38,229 bases of DNA from positions 1 through 38,229 of the IMG/VR virus record IMGVR_UViG_3300033153_004569. One strand, 5' to 3'. The notes below the pieces were generated by a model. The model did not search any database. It was given only the letters and a program-made list of their open reading frames with translations, and had not been told where the DNA came from. The position numbers and the translations under genes were made by a program. Source of the DNA: a virus. Positions 9,421 through 16,791 of this stretch are shown piece after piece. Positions within the stretch are counted from its first letter, which is position 1. Each line of letters begins with the position of its first letter.

Positions 9421-9883
9421 CTTCGTCCTCTGCTAGTAATGCCCGTAACTCTTGGGCAGGTGTTAAGATATTTGCGTCGGCTTCGGGCAAAGTCTTTAAG
9501 ACATGCGCGACAAGGCTGGAAACAACAGCCGCTGTTCGCGGTTCCATCTGGCCAGTCCTAACTTGATGCAGAGTTTCTACCGTGAACTGTCTAACATCTT
9601 CCATACTCTGCATCTCAGGTGAGGGCATTGACTCAGGTAGCTGCGCTGTTGTGTTGCCTCCCTTCTTACTATTCTCTAACCGGGTTTCTTTGTAGCTCGG
9701 CTCATGAAAATAACAAAAATCAAAACCATGCATTCTTCTTACGCTACATTGCTGCTCCTCAGAGTGGTAATGGGTACAGCGTATTCCAGAATGCGGCAGT
9801 TTTCTTTTTTTCTTGGGGGGTTTTTTCTGATCTGTAGATACAAAATAACCCGGTGTGTAGATTGGTATGTTTTGTTGTGTCAT
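9326..9883 (-). CDS. Terminase small subunit candidate with N-terminal zinc-type motif
   Basis: This is the first gene of the leftward late block, directly before the large terminase. The product has 185 residues. Residues 18-30 are lysine-rich. Next come C36, C46, C57 and H60 in a C-x9-C-x10-C-x2-H arrangement ending GFDFCYFH, a zinc-binding pattern seen in several phage small proteins. Residues of about 95-135 (VRQFTVETLHQVRTGQMEPRTAAVVSSLV, shown in part) are helical and resemble the oligomerisation region of small terminases. The C terminus is very acidic. It would recognise the packaging site and recruit TerL. The role is inferred mostly from position. AAGGA precedes the ATG by about nine bases. 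Confidence 0.55.
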   Translation of the reverse strand: MTQQNIPIYTPGYFVSTDQKKPPKKKRKLPHSGIRCTHYHSEEQQCSVRRMHGFDFCYFHEPSYKETRLENSKKGGNTTAQLPESMPSPEMQSMEDVRQFTVETLHQVRTGQMEPRTAAVVSSLVAHVLKTLPEADANILTPAQELRALLAEDEDVPEQDEDDEAGELMPDNRSGHRPNDPVQGI

Positions 9884-10036
9884 GGGCTTTGATCCTTGAC
9901 CTTTCCGACCTTGGGGAATAGATCCCCCTTGGACTGTTTTCTATATATTAACTAAGACCATGCCTATATGCACTATAATCGCTAATAATACTACTAACCT
10001 ACCTACCTACACTACTAACCACACCCACAACTACCA

Positions 10037-10065
10037 CCCTGAACACCCTACAACCCACTACCCCC
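10037..10065 (-). other. G-quadruplex motif on the minus strand
   Basis: Read on the minus strand, four G-runs (5, 3, 3 and 3 G) are separated by loops of 4, 5 and 6 bases, which fits the canonical G3+N1-7 pattern. A fifth run of three G lies 10 bases further along. If leftward transcription starts at the promoter candidate near 10443, the motif would lie in the long 5' leader of the late mRNA and also in the displaced DNA strand of an R-loop. Confidence 0.5.
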
Positions 10066-10256
10066 ACTTCGTGAGAGACTATCCCCTAGTTCCTAATACC
10101 TACTTACTATATAATAATAATACTCTATACCTACCTATATATTATTGTTTTTACAAACGCGGGGAATACCCCCCTATATTATTATTTATTTATTCATTTT
10201 ATTATTATATTATTTATTAATTCATTGATCCAATATGGATCTATTATCTATGTGTC

Positions 10257-10350
10257 TATTTACTCTAGGCACTCTCTCTCTCTTCTCTCTCTCTATCTCT
10301 ACTCTATCTCTCTCTATCTCGCTCTACTATTCTGGCTCTGCTTATCTAAG
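10257..10350. repeat. CT-rich microsatellite-like tract
   Basis: The plus strand is a run of CT and CTAT dinucleotide and tetranucleotide repeats with very few purines. Open frames through it translate to low-complexity S/L/Y-rich peptides without ribosome binding sites, so I do not call them genes. The complementary strand is GA-rich. It may form unusual DNA (triplex or R-loop) next to the proposed origin. Confidence 0.7.
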
Positions 10351-10442
10351 CTGTGCATCTGTCTTCATCTGCCTCTCTCATTCTGTGCTATGGTTGTGCC
10401 TCAAGGCGCGACCATCTTCTAGGCTGTACATTCCATACTATA

Positions 10443-10471
10443 TTAATAAGGTTGCCGACGGCTAAACGCAA
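10443..10471 (-). promoter_or_regulatory. Leftward promoter candidate for the late block
   Basis: On the minus strand TTGCGT (10466-10471) is followed, after exactly 17 bases, by TATTAA (10443-10448). The -35 box is embedded in CTTGCGTTT, the same 9-mer found at both rightward promoters of the paralogous cassettes. The start of the late block is about 560 bases further left, so the leader would be long, C-poor and G/A-rich. No closer sigma-70-like promoter was convincing. Confidence 0.4.
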
Positions 10472-10590
10472 GGCTGTATATTTCTGTGGTGTTACGGCCA
10501 CTTGAAGTTTACCCTTAGCTTATGGTTGTATGTTGTTGGGCTTGGGCTGTTTCTCTTGGTGACATTCTATTCTTGTTGCCAACGGAACAC

Positions 10591-10703
10591 TGACCAAACC
10601 AAAAGCCCATCCGACGGAACGTCAATCATTACGTCGTCACCTCTCATTCTGGGGTGACGATGTAAGCCTTGCCGTGCCATCAGCTGGGCTTTTGGTTTGG
10701 TCA
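10591..10703. repeat. 113-bp imperfect palindrome upstream of the first paralog
   Basis: Two 51-base arms (10591-10641 and 10653-10703) flank an 11-base loop. The outer 19 bases are perfectly complementary (TGACCAAACCAAAAGCCCA against its reverse complement). The inner 32 bases align without gaps with 23 matches plus one G-T wobble, and the 13 bases next to the loop are complete apart from that wobble. The element contains two opposed copies of AACCAAAAGC. It could extrude as a cruciform, fold as RNA, or bind a dimeric protein. It ends 62 bases upstream of the first rightward promoter. Confidence 0.8.
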
Positions 10704-10764
10704 ACCTTGCACACATGAGCTTACATTTACTTACTATTATTATTATCTTTATAGGTTTAGTTAC

Positions 10765-10793
10765 TTGCGTTTTGTGAATGTGTTCCTTAGTCT
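10765..10793 (+). promoter_or_regulatory. Promoter P1 of the first paralogous cassette
   Basis: TTGCGT (10765-10770), a 17-base spacer and TAGTCT (10788-10793) lie 44 bases before the start codon. The same two boxes at the same spacing precede the second paralog, while the intervening bases have diverged. The boxes match sigma-70 consensus at three of six positions each. The expected start point, seven bases after the -10, falls on the first base of the conserved leader hairpin at 10800. Confidence 0.5.
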
Positions 10794-10799
10794 AATCAT

Positions 10800-10815
10800 G
10801 TTCCAATCAAGGAAC
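10800..10815 (+). promoter_or_regulatory. 5' leader hairpin of the first paralog
   Basis: GTTCC and GGAAC flank a six-base loop (AATCAA). The matching leader of the second paralog has GTTCC, AATGAA and GGGAC, where the changed base keeps pairing as G-U. The hairpin would sit at the very 5' end of the mRNA and could protect it from decay or bind a regulator. Confidence 0.45.
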
Positions 10816-10836
10816 AAACAAACAAGGATAATGACA

Positions 10837-11505
10837 ATGACAAAGAAAACTAAAATGTTACGAACTGAGGAAAAGAAACACATTGAGGGTTTGGCTCTTG
10901 AGGTAGTCAATAAGGATGTGGATATTAAAACCCAGAAAAGTAATCTACTTAATAAGGGTCAACGGGATTATCTCGAAGCCTGTGTTAAGTCTCATTGGGA
11001 AAAGCTGGGTGCTGGTACTGACATTCGTCCTAAGCCTGTTAAGACCTCATATGATACTGGTACCCAGTTTACATTAACGCATGACTGGACTCAGCCTGCT
11101 GATTTCAATGTGTATGATTCTAGCTGGGTGTCGATTGCTAAGGTTTGCTGTAATACGCACAAGCTTAGTAAGCCTCTGTTTGATTTGCTGTTAGCTGATT
11201 TGCAGACTGCTAGTGATGATATCAATGCTAGGTTTGGGGATGATTACGAGTACGAGGTACACCTTGATAATGCTAAGTTATCAATGCTTTATATCTTTGC
11301 TTGGTTAAGTCGTCGTGGTCCTCAGTTTGATATGGATAAAGCTGGTAAGATTTGCGTTGATAGGTTTGGTAATATGTATCATCGTACGAACTTGAGTAGT
11401 ACATCTGCTTACACTGCTGGCCATGGTTCATGGGCTGTTGTTGTTTCGGGTGTGTTTAATGAGTATCACACTGGTAATCTTGATGCGGTCAAGCTGCTTG
11501 GTTAG
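10837..11505 (+). CDS. Paralogous early protein A, unknown function
   Basis: The product has 222 residues from ATG 10837. I chose this start over 10831 because AGGAT lies seven bases upstream and because the paralog at 11926 starts at the same point (both begin MTKK). I do not recognise the family. It shares with the paralog an N-terminal block (IEG..xEV, RDYL, W-x3-GAG) and a C-terminal block (SM-x-YI, W, DKAGKICVDRFGNM against SKAGTCVIDRMG). Codons are often T-ended (GGT, CGT, GCT, CCT), unlike the A-rich operon genes downstream, which suggests strong expression or different ancestry. It is monocistronic, with its own promoter, leader hairpin and terminator, so it is probably an early, abundant host-takeover or origin-binding protein; this is inference. 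Confidence 0.8.
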   Translation: MTKKTKMLRTEEKKHIEGLALEVVNKDVDIKTQKSNLLNKGQRDYLEACVKSHWEKLGAGTDIRPKPVKTSYDTGTQFTLTHDWTQPADFNVYDSSWVSIAKVCCNTHKLSKPLFDLLLADLQTASDDINARFGDDYEYEVHLDNAKLSMLYIFAWLSRRGPQFDMDKAGKICVDRFGNMYHRTNLSSTSAYTAGHGSWAVVVSGVFNEYHTGNLDAVKLLG

Positions 11506-11511
11506 TCAATC

Positions 11512-11543
11512 AGGATGGACCCCAAAAGGGGTTCATCCTTTTT
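11512..11543 (+). terminator. Rho-independent terminator of paralog A
   Basis: A 12-base-pair stem (AGGATGGACCCC with GGGGTTCATCCT, one G-U pair) with an AAAA loop is followed by four to five T residues. It starts six bases after the stop codon of the first paralog. It is one of the strongest terminators in the window and isolates the gene from the second cassette. Confidence 0.85.
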
Positions 11544-11665
11544 CTGTGGTGATTTCAAATCCTGAACCACCATCAAAAAAAAATCGCACAACCAAAAGCA
11601 CAACCAAAATACCAACAGCCAAACGGTGCAGTCGGATGATCGGATGACATCACCACCGTAAGGTT

Positions 11666-11827
11666 AACAAAACCAAAAGCGATTCTAAAAGTAGTAGTAC
11701 TATTTATATTACATAGACGCCCTTCGGTTGGGGCTGACATCGTGTCGAGCAAGCTCGTCCCGATCCGCCCTCGGCCACTAATGACTGGTATGTACTACGA
11801 CATTTTAAAATCGCTTTTGGTTTTGTT
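11666..11827. repeat. Large inverted repeat upstream of the second paralog, with internal hairpins
   Basis: The outer 19 bases (11666-11684, AACAAAACCAAAAGCGATT) are perfectly complementary to 11809-11827. Pairing continues inward to about 11700/11792 with two mismatches and one bulge, giving a stem near 35 bp. The roughly 91 enclosed bases hold smaller hairpins: GCCC...GGGC after 11728, GACA-TCG-TGTC, and CGAGC-AA-GCTCG near 11757. This closed stem with several inner hairpins looks like a structured RNA or a cruciform. It shares the AACCAAAAGC arms, but not the inner sequence, with the palindrome at 10591-10703. The rest of 11544-11853 has no gene; it holds A-rich DNA, another AACCAAAAGC, and tandem CGGATGAT/CGGATGAC. 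Confidence 0.75.
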
Positions 11828-11853
11828 CGTTTCATCTCTATGGTTTTAGTTAC

Positions 11854-11882
11854 TTGCGTTTCCTTATGTCATCAGCTAGTCT
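11854..11882 (+). promoter_or_regulatory. Promoter P2 of the second paralogous cassette
   Basis: TTGCGT (11854-11859), a 17-base spacer and TAGTCT (11877-11882) repeat the arrangement at 10765-10793. The flank TTAGTTACTTGCGTTT is identical in both. The predicted start falls at 11889, again the first base of the leader hairpin. Confidence 0.5.
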
Positions 11883-11888
11883 GTTCTT

Positions 11889-11904
11889 GTTCCAATGAAG
11901 GGAC
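11889..11904 (+). promoter_or_regulatory. 5' leader hairpin of the second paralog
   Basis: GTTCC, loop AATGAA, GGGAC. The stem is kept relative to the first cassette by a G-U pair, and the loop differs by one base. The ribosome binding site AGGAT follows about ten bases later. Confidence 0.45.
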
Positions 11905-11925
11905 ACAAACGAACAGGATAAAACA

Positions 11926-12570
11926 ATGACTAAAAAACTAAGCACACAACGTAAGCGAATGATCGAAGGCATCAGTACTGAAGTTATTAATGACGTCGTT
12001 AGCAAGTCTATTGCTTTCGAGGGAATGAATAACAAAGAAGAACGTGACTACCTTGCTCAACAGATCCAATCCTTTTGGGATGCTAAAGGTGCGGGATCTG
12101 TTCTTCATGCTAGTGACGATGACACTGAGCATTTACGTGATGCATGGGAGGTTTGTGATGACTTCACCCATTACGATAGCGAAGGTTATTCTGTTGCATT
12201 CGAAAAGGATTTAATCTTTGCATGTAATGCTAAGGCCTATCCTTTCCCACGTCGCAAGAGGTTTATTAATCAGCTTGAAAAAAGATCTGCTACTTTGCAG
12301 GTTGGTTTCAATAGTTATGATGGTGACTCGTTCCCTTATGAGTTACACAAGATGAACGCTCAGATCTCCATGATCTATATCTGTTATTGGAAGTCCATCA
12401 TGGGCGAGCAGTGGGATATCAGCAAGGCGGGCACCTGCGTCATTGACCGTATGGGTTGTCTCATTAGGCGTACACCCAGCGAGCACAAGTCAAAGGTTAG
12501 CGAGTACCAAGCTGATGAAGGTGCATGGTTAAATGTTATTAAGGATATCGTTAGCCGATACACCAAGTAA
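11926..12570 (+). CDS. Paralogous early protein B, unknown function
   Basis: The product has 214 residues, starting MTKKLSTQRKRMIEG seven bases after AGGAT. It is a diverged paralog of the product of 10837-11505, with roughly 30 percent identity by eye over the ends and less in the middle. Shared residues include RDYL, FWDAKGAG and DISKAGTCVIDRMG. The family is not recognised; no Walker, zinc or clear helix-turn-helix motif is visible. The N terminus is basic and helical. As for the first paralog, codons are enriched in T-ended forms and the gene is framed by its own promoter and terminator. Duplication of the whole unit including control DNA suggests dosage or division of labour between the copies. 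Confidence 0.8.
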   Translation: MTKKLSTQRKRMIEGISTEVINDVVSKSIAFEGMNNKEERDYLAQQIQSFWDAKGAGSVLHASDDDTEHLRDAWEVCDDFTHYDSEGYSVAFEKDLIFACNAKAYPFPRRKRFINQLEKRSATLQVGFNSYDGDSFPYELHKMNAQISMIYICYWKSIMGEQWDISKAGTCVIDRMGCLIRRTPSEHKSKVSEYQADEGAWLNVIKDIVSRYTK

Positions 12571-12584
12571 CAAACACGCAGAAG

Positions 12585-12610
12585 ATCCCTCACTTGTTGG
12601 GGGATTTTTT
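12585..12610 (+). terminator. Rho-independent terminator of paralog B
   Basis: ATCCCTCA pairs with TGGGGGAT (one G-U) around a five-base loop, followed by six T. It begins 14 bases after the stop codon. Pairing may extend by three A-T or G-T pairs into the T run. It isolates the cassette from the early operon, which therefore needs its own promoter or antitermination. Confidence 0.8.
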
Positions 12611-12667
12611 GCGGCACAACCAAAAGCGTAACCGAAGGTTTGCAAGTTTACCTTGTCGGATGATTAA

Positions 12668-12741
12668 GTTTAAAAGTTTCCCATCAGTTTAAAAGTTTCC
12701 CATCTGGTTTAAATGTTTCCCTCCTAGTTTAAATGTTTGCA
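12668..12741. repeat. Four iterons of 19-20 bp
   Basis: The core GTTTAAAWGTTTSCC-like unit starts at 12668, 12687, 12707 and 12727. The spacings are 19, 20 and 20 bases, about two helical turns. Copies 1 and 2 are identical over 19 bases (AGTTTAAAAGTTTCCCATC); copies 3 and 4 have AAAT for AAAA. Regularly phased direct repeats next to an early operon that encodes a RepA-like ATPase are typical of initiator-binding iterons, but an operator array is equally possible. Confidence 0.75.
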
Positions 12742-12774
12742 TGTTTTATTCATACCTCCTTTCCCATCTTGGGT

Positions 12775-12788
12775 AGCCCTTCGGGGTT
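12775..12788 (+). promoter_or_regulatory. UUCG-tetraloop hairpin in the early-operon leader
   Basis: CCC-TTCG-GGG, extended by a G-T and an A-T pair, forms a short, very stable tetraloop hairpin about 33 bases before the first operon gene. The following T run is only three long, so it is a weak terminator at best and may instead be a leader structure. No convincing -35/-10 pair was found between the iterons and the start codon; TATAAC at 12801 has no good -35. Confidence 0.35.
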
Positions 12789-12820
12789 TGCAATTAAGCA
12801 TATAACAACAGGAGATGAAG

Positions 12821-13123
12821 ATGGTAGATATAGCAGATCAGATTGACACTTGTGAAGTAGACATGAGAACCATGATTGAAGCGTTGCTTGATGACGACGT
12901 TGGTGCAGTGTGTGACTACATACTTAAAGACGACAGGTCTGAGGCATACATCAAGGAAGAGTTACTAACAGAGAAAGAGCAATGTATTACAATCGTTCGC
13001 AACAGAGTGGTGCAAACACAGAAGGAGATAGACATGCTAAAGAACATGGTCGAGCTCTTACTACGAGGACAAGAAAGAATGATTGTTAAGTTAGATAAAC
13101 TTCCACACCGAGGAGAGATCTAA
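12821..13123 (+). CDS. First gene of the early operon, small helical protein, unknown function
   Basis: The product has 100 residues, starting MVDIADQIDTCEVDMRTM. ATG 12821 is preferred over 12815 because the GGAG at 12811-12814 leaves a workable gap of six bases only for the later codon. The protein is charged and mostly helical, with a heptad-like C-terminal half (VVQTQKEIDMLKNMVELLLRGQERMIVKL, shown in part) that could form a coiled coil. Its stop overlaps the next ATG (TAATG). The family is not recognised. Confidence 0.7.
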   Translation: MVDIADQIDTCEVDMRTMIEALLDDDVGAVCDYILKDDRSEAYIKEELLTEKEQCITIVRNRVVQTQKEIDMLKNMVELLLRGQERMIVKLDKLPHRGEI

Positions 13124-13434
13124 TGTTTGTAAGCAATCTCAATAAAGGTTTCAGCATGACCTTTGCAAATGGAAACACGGTATCAATACAGTGGGGTGTC
13201 GCTAACTATTGTGAACACTACATGAAGAAGGACGACGTTAAGCTATCAGCAACAAAGGAGACATGGAAAAGTAAGGACACTGAGATGGCAGCATGGAACA
13301 TCGATGGCGAGTGGCATAGCTTTGAGGTGGGCTGCGGCTTAGGTGGTAATCAGGTACAGGGGTACATAAGTGCAGACGAGGTTCTTGCATTCATGAACTT
13401 CGTAGCAACAAACAAAATAACTAAGGGAGAATGA
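13123..13434 (+). CDS. Early protein of unknown function, 103 residues
   Basis: The product begins MFVSNLNKGFSMTFANGNTVSIQWG and reads as a small strand-rich domain, then a helix ADEVLAFMNFVATN. A GC-GLGGNQVQGY stretch lies in the middle. The gene overlaps both neighbours (TAATG at the start, ATGA at the end). No known family is recognised, and nothing suggests membrane location. Confidence 0.7.
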   Translation: MFVSNLNKGFSMTFANGNTVSIQWGVANYCEHYMKKDDVKLSATKETWKSKDTEMAAWNIDGEWHSFEVGCGLGGNQVQGYISADEVLAFMNFVATNKITKGE

Positions 13435-15398: not shown

Positions 15399-15843
15399 GA
15401 TGCAAAGAGACAAGGGTGCTAGGTTTGAACGCTGGACCAGACAGCAGTTTGAATACCTATATAGCACCACCCTTTCCAGAGGACAACAACGTGCAGGGGC
15501 TTTACAACCAGATGTCATCGCACCTGATTGGTGGATCGAATGTACTGTGGGAAAAAACCCACGGGTCTATGCAAAGATACATCAGTCGGAGCGAGATCTA
15601 AAGTCTTGTGCTCATGAACATAGAAACAAGAAACCTTTAATCATACATAAGAAAGACAGGGAAGATGTATGGGTAACACTAAGATGGAAAGACTTCGTTG
15701 AGTTACTACAAAACTCACAGAGTTATCAGGAGTTATACTATGAGAAAAAGGAAATCCCTAATGAACGGACAAGGAACATTAGGGACATCCAAAACAAACA
15801 AGATAAACAAGATGTAGTTAAGCATCTTGAAGGGGATATATGA
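15391..15843 (+). CDS. PD-(D/E)XK nuclease, Holliday-junction-resolvase-like
   Basis: The product has 150 residues. The core is KGARFERW, LSRGQQRAGALQPDV and WWIECTVGKNP, followed by a basic helix and VWVTLRWKDFVELL. This matches the E-D-ExxxK layout of small phage and archaeal-type resolvases: E13, D in QPDV, E in WIECT and a following lysine. It would cut branched DNA before packaging. The usual ExK is replaced by E-C-T-x-G-K, so the assignment is moderate. The last 35 residues are charged and low-complexity. The gene closes this run of overlapping genes; a 93-base gap follows. Confidence 0.55.
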   Translation: MSKMQRDKGARFERWTRQQFEYLYSTTLSRGQQRAGALQPDVIAPDWWIECTVGKNPRVYAKIHQSERDLKSCAHEHRNKKPLIIHKKDREDVWVTLRWKDFVELLQNSQSYQELYYEKKEIPNERTRNIRDIQNKQDKQDVVKHLEGDI

Positions 15844-15845
15844 TG

Positions 15846-15863
15846 ACTTTCTTTGAGGAAAGT
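15846..15863 (+). terminator. Short hairpin after the resolvase-like gene
   Basis: ACTTTC and GAAAGT pair perfectly around a six-base loop, three bases after the stop codon. The following bases are AT-rich but not a T run. It may act as a weak terminator, a processing site or a 3' end stabiliser at the only real gap in the early operon. Confidence 0.3.
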
Positions 15864-15882
15864 TATCATATATCTATATATA

Positions 15883-15911
15883 ATTATAAGAGCTTGCATC
15901 ATTAAACGCAA
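15883..15911 (-). promoter_or_regulatory. Antisense promoter candidate in the gap before the ArdC-like gene
   Basis: On the minus strand TTGCGT (15906-15911), 17 bases, then a perfect TATAAT (15883-15888). The -35 is again inside CTTGCGTTT. It would produce RNA antisense to the resolvase-like gene. The site overlaps a dyad (GCTTGC...GCAAGC, 15892-15913). It also overlaps a weaker plus-strand pair, TTGCAT (15894-15899) and TAAACT (15917-15922), that could serve the ArdC-like gene. Confidence 0.4.
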
Positions 15912-15936
15912 GCATATAAACTACAGGGAGAACAAG

Positions 15937-16791
15937 ATGAGTAGTCAGACAAAAAACAATAAGGTATTTCAATACATTATAGACGCTCTTGAAAAGGGAA
16001 CAGTCCCTTGGCGTAGTCCGTATAAGCCCATGATATCAGGTCATGGTCACGTTTACACTGGTGTGAACCGCATGGTTTTAAACATGGAAGCTAGGCTAAA
16101 GGAGTACACCAGTAGAACTTGGTACACCTACAAGGGTGCCAAGAAGAATGGCGGTACTGTGTGCAAGGGCGAGAAGGGTACACCAATCATATACTACTCG
16201 CAGGGCACGAAGGAGAACAAGGAAGGAGAGCAGCAGTTCTGGTTGGTAAGGAAGGTTTACTATGTATTCAACAAAGATCAGTGTGATTTTTGGGAAGACG
16301 AATCAGAGGTAGAAGAAGAATGGGCACCAACATGGTCAGGAGATACCATCGTGGGCGCATACGCAACCAACAATCCTGAGCTCAAGATTACTCATGTACC
16401 GGGCATGGCCTACTATGCTCCAAAGAAAGATGTAGTCAATGTTCCTATGCCAAGAGAACTAGAGGCAGGGATGTACTACCCGACAATGTTTCATGAGTTA
16501 GCTCATTCGACAGGCGCAAAGCATAGGCTTGATCGATCAGGCATAACAGATATTAACATGCATGGAGATCATGCTTACAGTGAGGAGGAGTTAGTAGCAG
16601 AGATGACGACAGCGTACCTATGTGGGTATGCAAACTTTCAGATGGAAATGTTAGATCAGAGTGCAGCATATATAAAAGGATGGATGAAGGGAATCAAAGA
16701 TGACCCGAACATACTTCAACGTGCAGCATCGATGGCAGAGAAAGCATTTGATTACATAGTACAAACAAACAAGGGAGATGACAATGGATAA
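15937..16791 (+). CDS. ardC: ArdC-like antirestriction protein (ssDNA-binding domain plus metallopeptidase)
   Basis: The product has 284 residues from ATG 15937, chosen because AGGGAG lies six bases upstream. The N-terminal domain (about 7-115) has the ArdC ssDNA-binding pattern: YIIDALEKGTVPWRSPY, YTGVNRMVL and KGEKGTPIIYY. The C-terminal domain is a zinc metallopeptidase with HELAH at 186-190 and a downstream glutamate in ELVAEM (E222). Proteins of this family protect incoming DNA from type I and II restriction and may cleave host defence proteins. The length and both domains are complete. Its own small intergenic control region suggests early, separately controlled expression. Confidence 0.85.
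   Translation: MSSQTKNNKVFQYIIDALEKGTVPWRSPYKPMISGHGHVYTGVNRMVLNMEARLKEYTSRTWYTYKGAKKNGGTVCKGEKGTPIIYYSQGTKENKEGEQQFWLVRKVYYVFNKDQCDFWEDESEVEEEWAPTWSGDTIVGAYATNNPELKITHVPGMAYYAPKKDVVNVPMPRELEAGMYYPTMFHELAHSTGAKHRLDRSGITDINMHGDHAYSEEELVAEMTTAYLCGYANFQMEMLDQSAAYIKGWMKGIKDDPNILQRAASMAEKAFDYIVQTNKGDDNG

Follow-up and report, generated by a model that had tools for sequence, protein, structure and literature searches.

Why should a virus genome carry a quasi-palindrome of 113 bp between two divergent blocks of genes, and would such a sequence act as DNA or as RNA? The question is raised by virus record IMGVR_UViG_3300033153_004569, the whole of which (38,229 bases) is referred to here as the window. 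A 114-bp end repeat indicates that the window is probably a complete circular assembly. Its leftward block includes genes for a P22-like portal and the terminase large subunit; the rightward block includes genes for a RusA-like resolvase, an ArdC-like anti-restriction protein, a DnaB-like helicase and a RecE-like exonuclease. The palindrome (H1) lies where the preliminary description had placed it, in the divergent region bounded by the start of the leftward genes at 9883 and that of rightward gene A at 10837. The features on which the argument draws are these:

10464..10472, minus strand: third copy of the 9-mer CTTGCGTTT; TTGCGT, then TATTAA 17 bp on (by eye)
10591..10703, no strand: H1, quasi-palindrome of 113 bp with 51-nt arms and an 11-nt loop
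10596..10606, plus strand: core AAACCAAAAGC in the left arm of H1 (complement at 10688-10698)
10765..10793, plus strand: promoter-like pair TTGCGT-17-TAGTCT before gene A
10837..11505, plus strand: gene A, 222 aa, no known family
11512..11544, plus strand: intrinsic-terminator-like site 3' of gene A
11666..11827, no strand: H2, quasi-palindrome of 162 bp, outer 25-nt arms paired at 24 of 25 positions, 5' of gene B
11854..11882, plus strand: promoter-like pair TTGCGT-17-TAGTCT before gene B, hexamers kept, spacer diverged
11926..12570, plus strand: gene B, 214 aa, paralogue of A
12586..12609, plus strand: intrinsic-terminator-like site 3' of gene B
15835..15874, no strand: H3, hairpin with a 17-bp stem (one G.T) and a 6-nt loop, before the ArdC-like gene
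15894..15922, plus strand: promoter-like TTGCAT-17-TAAACT before ArdC, with AAACGCAAG in the spacer (by eye)
15937..16791, plus strand: ArdC-like anti-restriction gene, with a start inferred from its match to the ArdcN domain
1226-1265 of the related locus L002: sequence-diverged counterpart of H3, equal in stem and loop length

Structure of the palindrome in the divergent region

Recomputation reproduced the palindrome exactly as first described: the arms (10591-10641 and 10653-10703, with 11 nt between them) are complementary at 42 of 51 positions (82%) and the outer 19 bp are perfect. The mismatches, at arm positions 20, 22, 25, 28, 32, 36, 37, 38 and 43, are all confined to positions 20-43 (p 4e-4), leaving a perfect foot, an imperfect middle and a perfect top. 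That there are nine of them counts against an assembly artefact in which one arm was copied. No ungapped palindrome in the window outscores H1 (28.5); when the entire window was dinucleotide-shuffled 200 times, the best score averaged 12.3 and reached at most 17.0, and 500 shuffles of 9884-12814 gave a maximum of 14.0. Among 4188 windows of 150 nt, drawn from the window and seven other loci, it ranks first in stability for its GC content.

Comparison of fold energy with shuffled sequence, the check proposed at the outset, puts H1 far beyond chance. As RNA, the plus strand folds at -68.1 kcal/mol (z -11.3; equalled by 0 of 200 shuffles) and the minus strand at -67.6 kcal/mol (z -10.2); folded as DNA the value is -36.8 (z -9.3). 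Since H1 folds equally well on both strands, stability alone cannot tell a DNA role from an RNA role.

Several familiar identities fit poorly. H1 does not resemble an intrinsic terminator: no T-tract is present, ACCTTGCACACA follows instead, and H1 is missing from the list of terminator-like sites. Rfam 15 gave no match in the window at the gathering score. Both arms read DQTKSP.DGT...TSSP in one frame; a coding origin is nonetheless not compelling, just five of the nine mismatches falling at third codon positions (hand count). Set against integron attC ends and protelomerase sites, H1 has no matching end boxes by eye, and no such gene was recognised.

The preliminary description had also assigned H1 to a probable origin region, for which we found no evidence. 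The proposal that H1 is a replication element, either for single-strand initiation (primosome or Frpo-like) or as an origin hairpin, draws on its location in the divergent region, a GC-skew switch at ~10.5 kb and the gene for a DnaB-like helicase. That switch, however, is also the point where transcription diverges, and skew follows gene direction. H1 contains no -35/-10-like pair, and it was not seen in those relatives whose helicase and exonuclease genes are kept. At least two copies exist, tied to paralogous genes; the recurrence before a paralogue favours an element linked to the gene. We regard an origin function as improbable, and as the least likely of the explanations weighed.

The nearby interval 9930-10330 is non-coding and shows marked strand asymmetry, with AT-rich blocks followed by CT repeats. 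Pieces of it (a CGGGGAATACCCC hairpin, ATTCATTGAT and ACTCTAGGC) recur more or less exactly in L002.

Paralogous cassettes and promoter-like blocks

Genes A and B are 33% identical over 218 residues (E 1.4e-31), and the 87-90 nt preceding each are 77% alike. H2 sits between the terminator of gene A (11512) and the leader of gene B; its full 162 bp are ~65% self-complementary with gaps, and its folds reach z -6.8 and -7.0. H1 and H2 share AAACCAAAAGC at the same place in the stem (H2 copies at 11670-11680 and 11813-11823). Aligned on this core, the two have 18 consecutive outer pairs, all paired in both: in this one pair of copies, 13 pairs are identical, five have changed on both sides and none is broken. 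The six copies of the 10-mer AACCAAAAGC in the window are confined to the three spacers around genes A and B.

The two proteins, probable early or host-takeover proteins, found little by way of kin. Searches of PDB, Pfam and NCBIfam returned only weak matches below cutoff, and searches of phages a single match at E 0.3; neither gene has a relative in viral_contigs, nor has gene B one in genome_contigs. Rows from an A/B profile in G001 and G002 (0.007-0.009; 9.6 bits, 55 residues inside a 506-aa frame) were too weak to retain. AlphaFold2, given a two-sequence input, modelled gene A at a mean pLDDT of 54. Between gene B and the next operon, at 12666-12746, four near-copies of a GTTTAAAAGTTTCCCATC-like unit of 19-22 nt can be seen by eye; by the same inspection they look iteron- or operator-like.

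An ungapped alignment of the A and B leaders shows TTTAGTTACTTGCGTTT and TAGTCT kept and the spacer diverged, with exactly 17 bp between TTGCGT and TAGTCT in both. A hexamer pair held at 17 bp around a free spacer is the typical look of a bacterial promoter. The hexamers are weak matches to the sigma-70 consensus, and a promoter scanner made no call on them; over 9700-13200 it reported three promoter-like sites, none inside 10591-10703. The pattern CTTGCGT-17-TANNNT occurs three times in the window against a mean of 0.05 in 500 shuffles, and in none of seven other records searched; one of the three, a leftward TTGCGT-17-TATAAT reading at ArdC, is probably fortuitous. The window has four copies of the 9-mer CTTGCGTTT: one each upstream of A and B, one leftward at 10464-10472, where it is possibly part of a leftward promoter, and one reversed before ArdC. 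That it stands either way round with respect to its gene points to DNA. Because the ArdC copy falls within the spacer of another promoter-like pair, the 9-mer may be either a -35 or an operator.

Each of H1, H2 and H3 is followed 25-60 bp on by CTTGCGTTT or the complementary 9-mer, in a region that looks promoter-like. By palindrome score the top three in the window (28.5 and 14.5, both with short loops, and 22.5, with a loop of 112 nt) are all within 65 bp of a copy of the 9-mer. Random placement never brought all three that near in 200,000 trials, and did so 485 times in as many trials with centres limited to non-coding bases; as the 9-mer sites and the distance limit were set after inspection, this test of association is descriptive, and the patterns used throughout were likewise picked after inspection of A and B.

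The order of these parts bears on whether the hairpins are transcribed. If the A and B blocks are promoters, then H1 and H2 lie outside the mRNAs of A and B. A 5'-UTR reading of H1 becomes less likely, the promoter-like regions lying downstream of the hairpins. As to the suggestion that H1 might form a stable RNA if transcribed, with promoter-like blocks downstream of it H1 need not be in the gene A mRNA.

Read-through transcripts might even so form the hairpins, which would be cut by RNase III or would shield an RNA end, separating cistrons in the manner of the hairpins between genes of T7-type early regions. The hairpins are very stable on either strand, H2 and H3 stand between co-oriented genes, with H3 starting at the end of RusA, and H1 and H3 each have one G.U on the plus strand. 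The plus-strand wobbles are not enriched, however: H1 has one G.U against two C.A, and the outer stem of H2 has a C.A. Moreover, upstream of H1 the promoter scan placed no promoter-like site pointing rightward, a terminator precedes H2, and Rfam offered no match. An RNA-level boundary is, in our estimation, possible but rather doubtful.

The ArdC hairpin and the comparison with relatives

The 201-nt region around H3 folds at z -8.1. In two relatives, L002 and L004, a hairpin likewise built of a 17-bp stem and a 6-nt loop occupies the RusA-ArdC spacer, with TATATATAA and then the same 9-mer as in the window downstream. Compared with H3, seven of its 17 pairs are the same, nine have changed on both sides and one is the G.T of the window; L002 and L004 are 99.7% identical over the 6 kb compared, so that two distinct sequences are being set side by side. 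Against the window, their TerL is 74% and their ArdC 45% identical. The relative's ArdC leader has TTGACT-17-TAAAGT with the same 9-mer, and by eye both ArdC leaders allow a reading as TTG(C/A)(A/C)T-17-TAAA(C/G)T promoters. An ArdC relative in L021 provides a counter-example, with no comparable hairpin upstream (z -1.2). Because H3 directly follows RusA, it could act on the RusA transcript. Between RusA and ArdC there are two tandem hairpins in the window and three in L002 (1226-1325), one of these a terminator-like ATCCCACGA..TCGTGGGAT stem.

Compensatory change, which had been put forward as a check between relatives, is thus seen for H1 against its paralogous copy H2 (5 of 18 pairs) and, between two phages, at the sister element H3 (9 of 17); H1 itself lacks a relative in every collection searched. 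Such patterns might also arise passively, from an inverted duplication whose arms template switching keeps complementary (quasipalindrome correction) and which serves no function. Template switching is described in PMC8794818 as creating and mending stems, and it can yield the double-sided pattern of H1 and H2. In keeping with this, the AACCAAAAGC box also stands singly at 11590 and 12618, and an arm-like 42-nt segment lies at 12618-12657 (E 0.14). Against it, the three long palindromes are all upstream of 9-mer sites and not in other spacers, H3 and its counterpart retain stem and loop length despite their changed letters, and the mismatches of H1 are unevenly spread. A passive origin is unlikely, though real competition.

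To examine the neighborhood of H1 in relatives we used 13 TerL-matched IMG/VR loci, seven of which (L002, L004, L007-L011) extend at least 1 kb past the TerS homologue. None of the seven yielded an H1-like palindrome tied to an A/B-like gene; the A/B profile search took in the records of L002, L004, L005, L008, L010, L011 and L021. In L002 the part of the divergent region rich in AT and in pyrimidines is retained, but other small genes follow. Loss of the palindrome with its flanks kept, named at the outset as grounds for refutation, is therefore seen on one side: H1 is absent where the TerL/TerS side is kept, but those relatives also lack A and B, which means that the palindrome goes with the cassette. 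H1 appears to belong to a module gained or lost together with A and B.

Wider searches were largely empty. A blastn search of phages with 9500-11800 gave no match, the exact outer-arm pattern of H1 is absent from IMG/VR, and a TerL search of genome_contigs found nothing. Six stretches matched the core pattern with a gap of 66-96, their arms unpaired beyond the core, and were taken as chance; so were three IMG/VR matches to the leader motif TTTAGTTACTTGCGTTT, on unrelated contigs and with no adjacent palindrome in the stretches inspected.

Other repeats were noted in the relatives. A perfect 24-bp palindrome with a loop of 4 nt lies in L008 (1294-1345), inside a predicted 147-aa frame; it is a counter-example without an established link to an early promoter. 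Two spacers of L010 (880-3060) contain many inverted copies of short, TTGACG-type repeats of the form TTTTGACG(C/T)GTCA, a further counter-example; one of these spacers folds very stably (z -9). L002 (2750-4460) repeats the leader TTAGTTAAATGCAA(A/G)GCATTGAAA before several successive small genes.

Interpretation and known systems

Judged from sequence, we tentatively prefer, at somewhat less than even confidence, to see H1 as an element that acts at the DNA level, as a boundary or regulator of early-gene cassettes, and is kept for its pairing. An RNA insulator or a site of RNase III type follows close behind, ahead of the passive product. We infer from their place that A, B and ArdC are early genes. 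Each cassette would run from palindrome through promoter-like region and gene to terminator, with H1 as the upstream boundary; the cassette would have been duplicated (A and B) in this phage, and a related hairpin would stand before ArdC. Selection would keep the pairing of the arms, plus the short core AAACCAAAAGC in A and B. Given the promoter-like blocks downstream and the 9-mer in both orientations, the module most likely acts on DNA. The palindrome may serve as duplex, offering an inverted pair of binding sites, or as a hairpin or cruciform extruded under negative supercoiling, and may set or insulate the activity of a promoter ~25-60 bp downstream. Our confidence in the mechanism overall is moderate to low. 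A more specific version strikes us as quite unlikely: a supercoil-sensing early-promoter switch in a phage of P22-portal type, in which long DNA hairpins conserved for pairing only would extrude upstream of the host-read early promoters of A, B and ArdC and gate them. Gating would start when the genome, after injection, has become a negatively supercoiled circle, and the action would resemble that of N4 hairpin promoters without the virion polymerase.

The hairpins read by the N4 virion RNA polymerase likewise stand next to early phage promoters. They are short and are themselves the promoter, however, lying just upstream of +1, whereas the stems here are of 17-51 bp and upstream of promoter-like blocks; H1, with its 51-nt arms, is ~60 bp upstream of the promoter-like -35. 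Proteins of 1735 and 1090 aa gave no PHROG, Pfam or PDB-sequence match by which an N4-type polymerase might be recognised, although remote homology is possible. In N4 hairpin stems conserved bases are combined with variable ones whose sole requirement is to stay paired (PMC4496689). The Frpo/ssi single-stranded DNA promoters of conjugative plasmids offer an imperfect hairpin before early-expressed genes, and these genes include anti-defence genes (PMC11541004). Frpo stems carry -35 and -10 elements, of which H1 has none, and this phage has no known single-stranded entry stage. In the early genes of T7, RNase III sites are long hairpins between co-oriented genes, often beside promoters. The likeness to T7 lies in such hairpins; the difference is that H1 precedes the first rightward gene and that its transcription is only conjectural. 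By analogy, N4 is the nearest functional and Frpo the nearest architectural parallel; membership in either is not supported, there being no promoter elements in the stem and no virion polymerase recognised.

According to a survey of 118,019 genomes (PMC13155455), viruses and bacteria are enriched in inverted repeats ~50 bp ahead of their translation starts, which suggests that upstream hairpins as such are common. What is unusual here is the length, the paralogous pair and the conservation of pairing only; no account of such an arrangement came up in our literature searches.

If the pairing has its function on DNA, extruded hairpins would have a second use in early phage transcription, independent of that in N4, and the pairing would supply a sequence-free signature (stem kept, letters changed, by early promoters) for finding such switches in uncultured phages. 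If the hairpins act as RNA, they would mark out an expression cassette that is compact and insulated. In both cases an anti-restriction gene and two unknown, probable early proteins stand out as one possibly co-regulated set.
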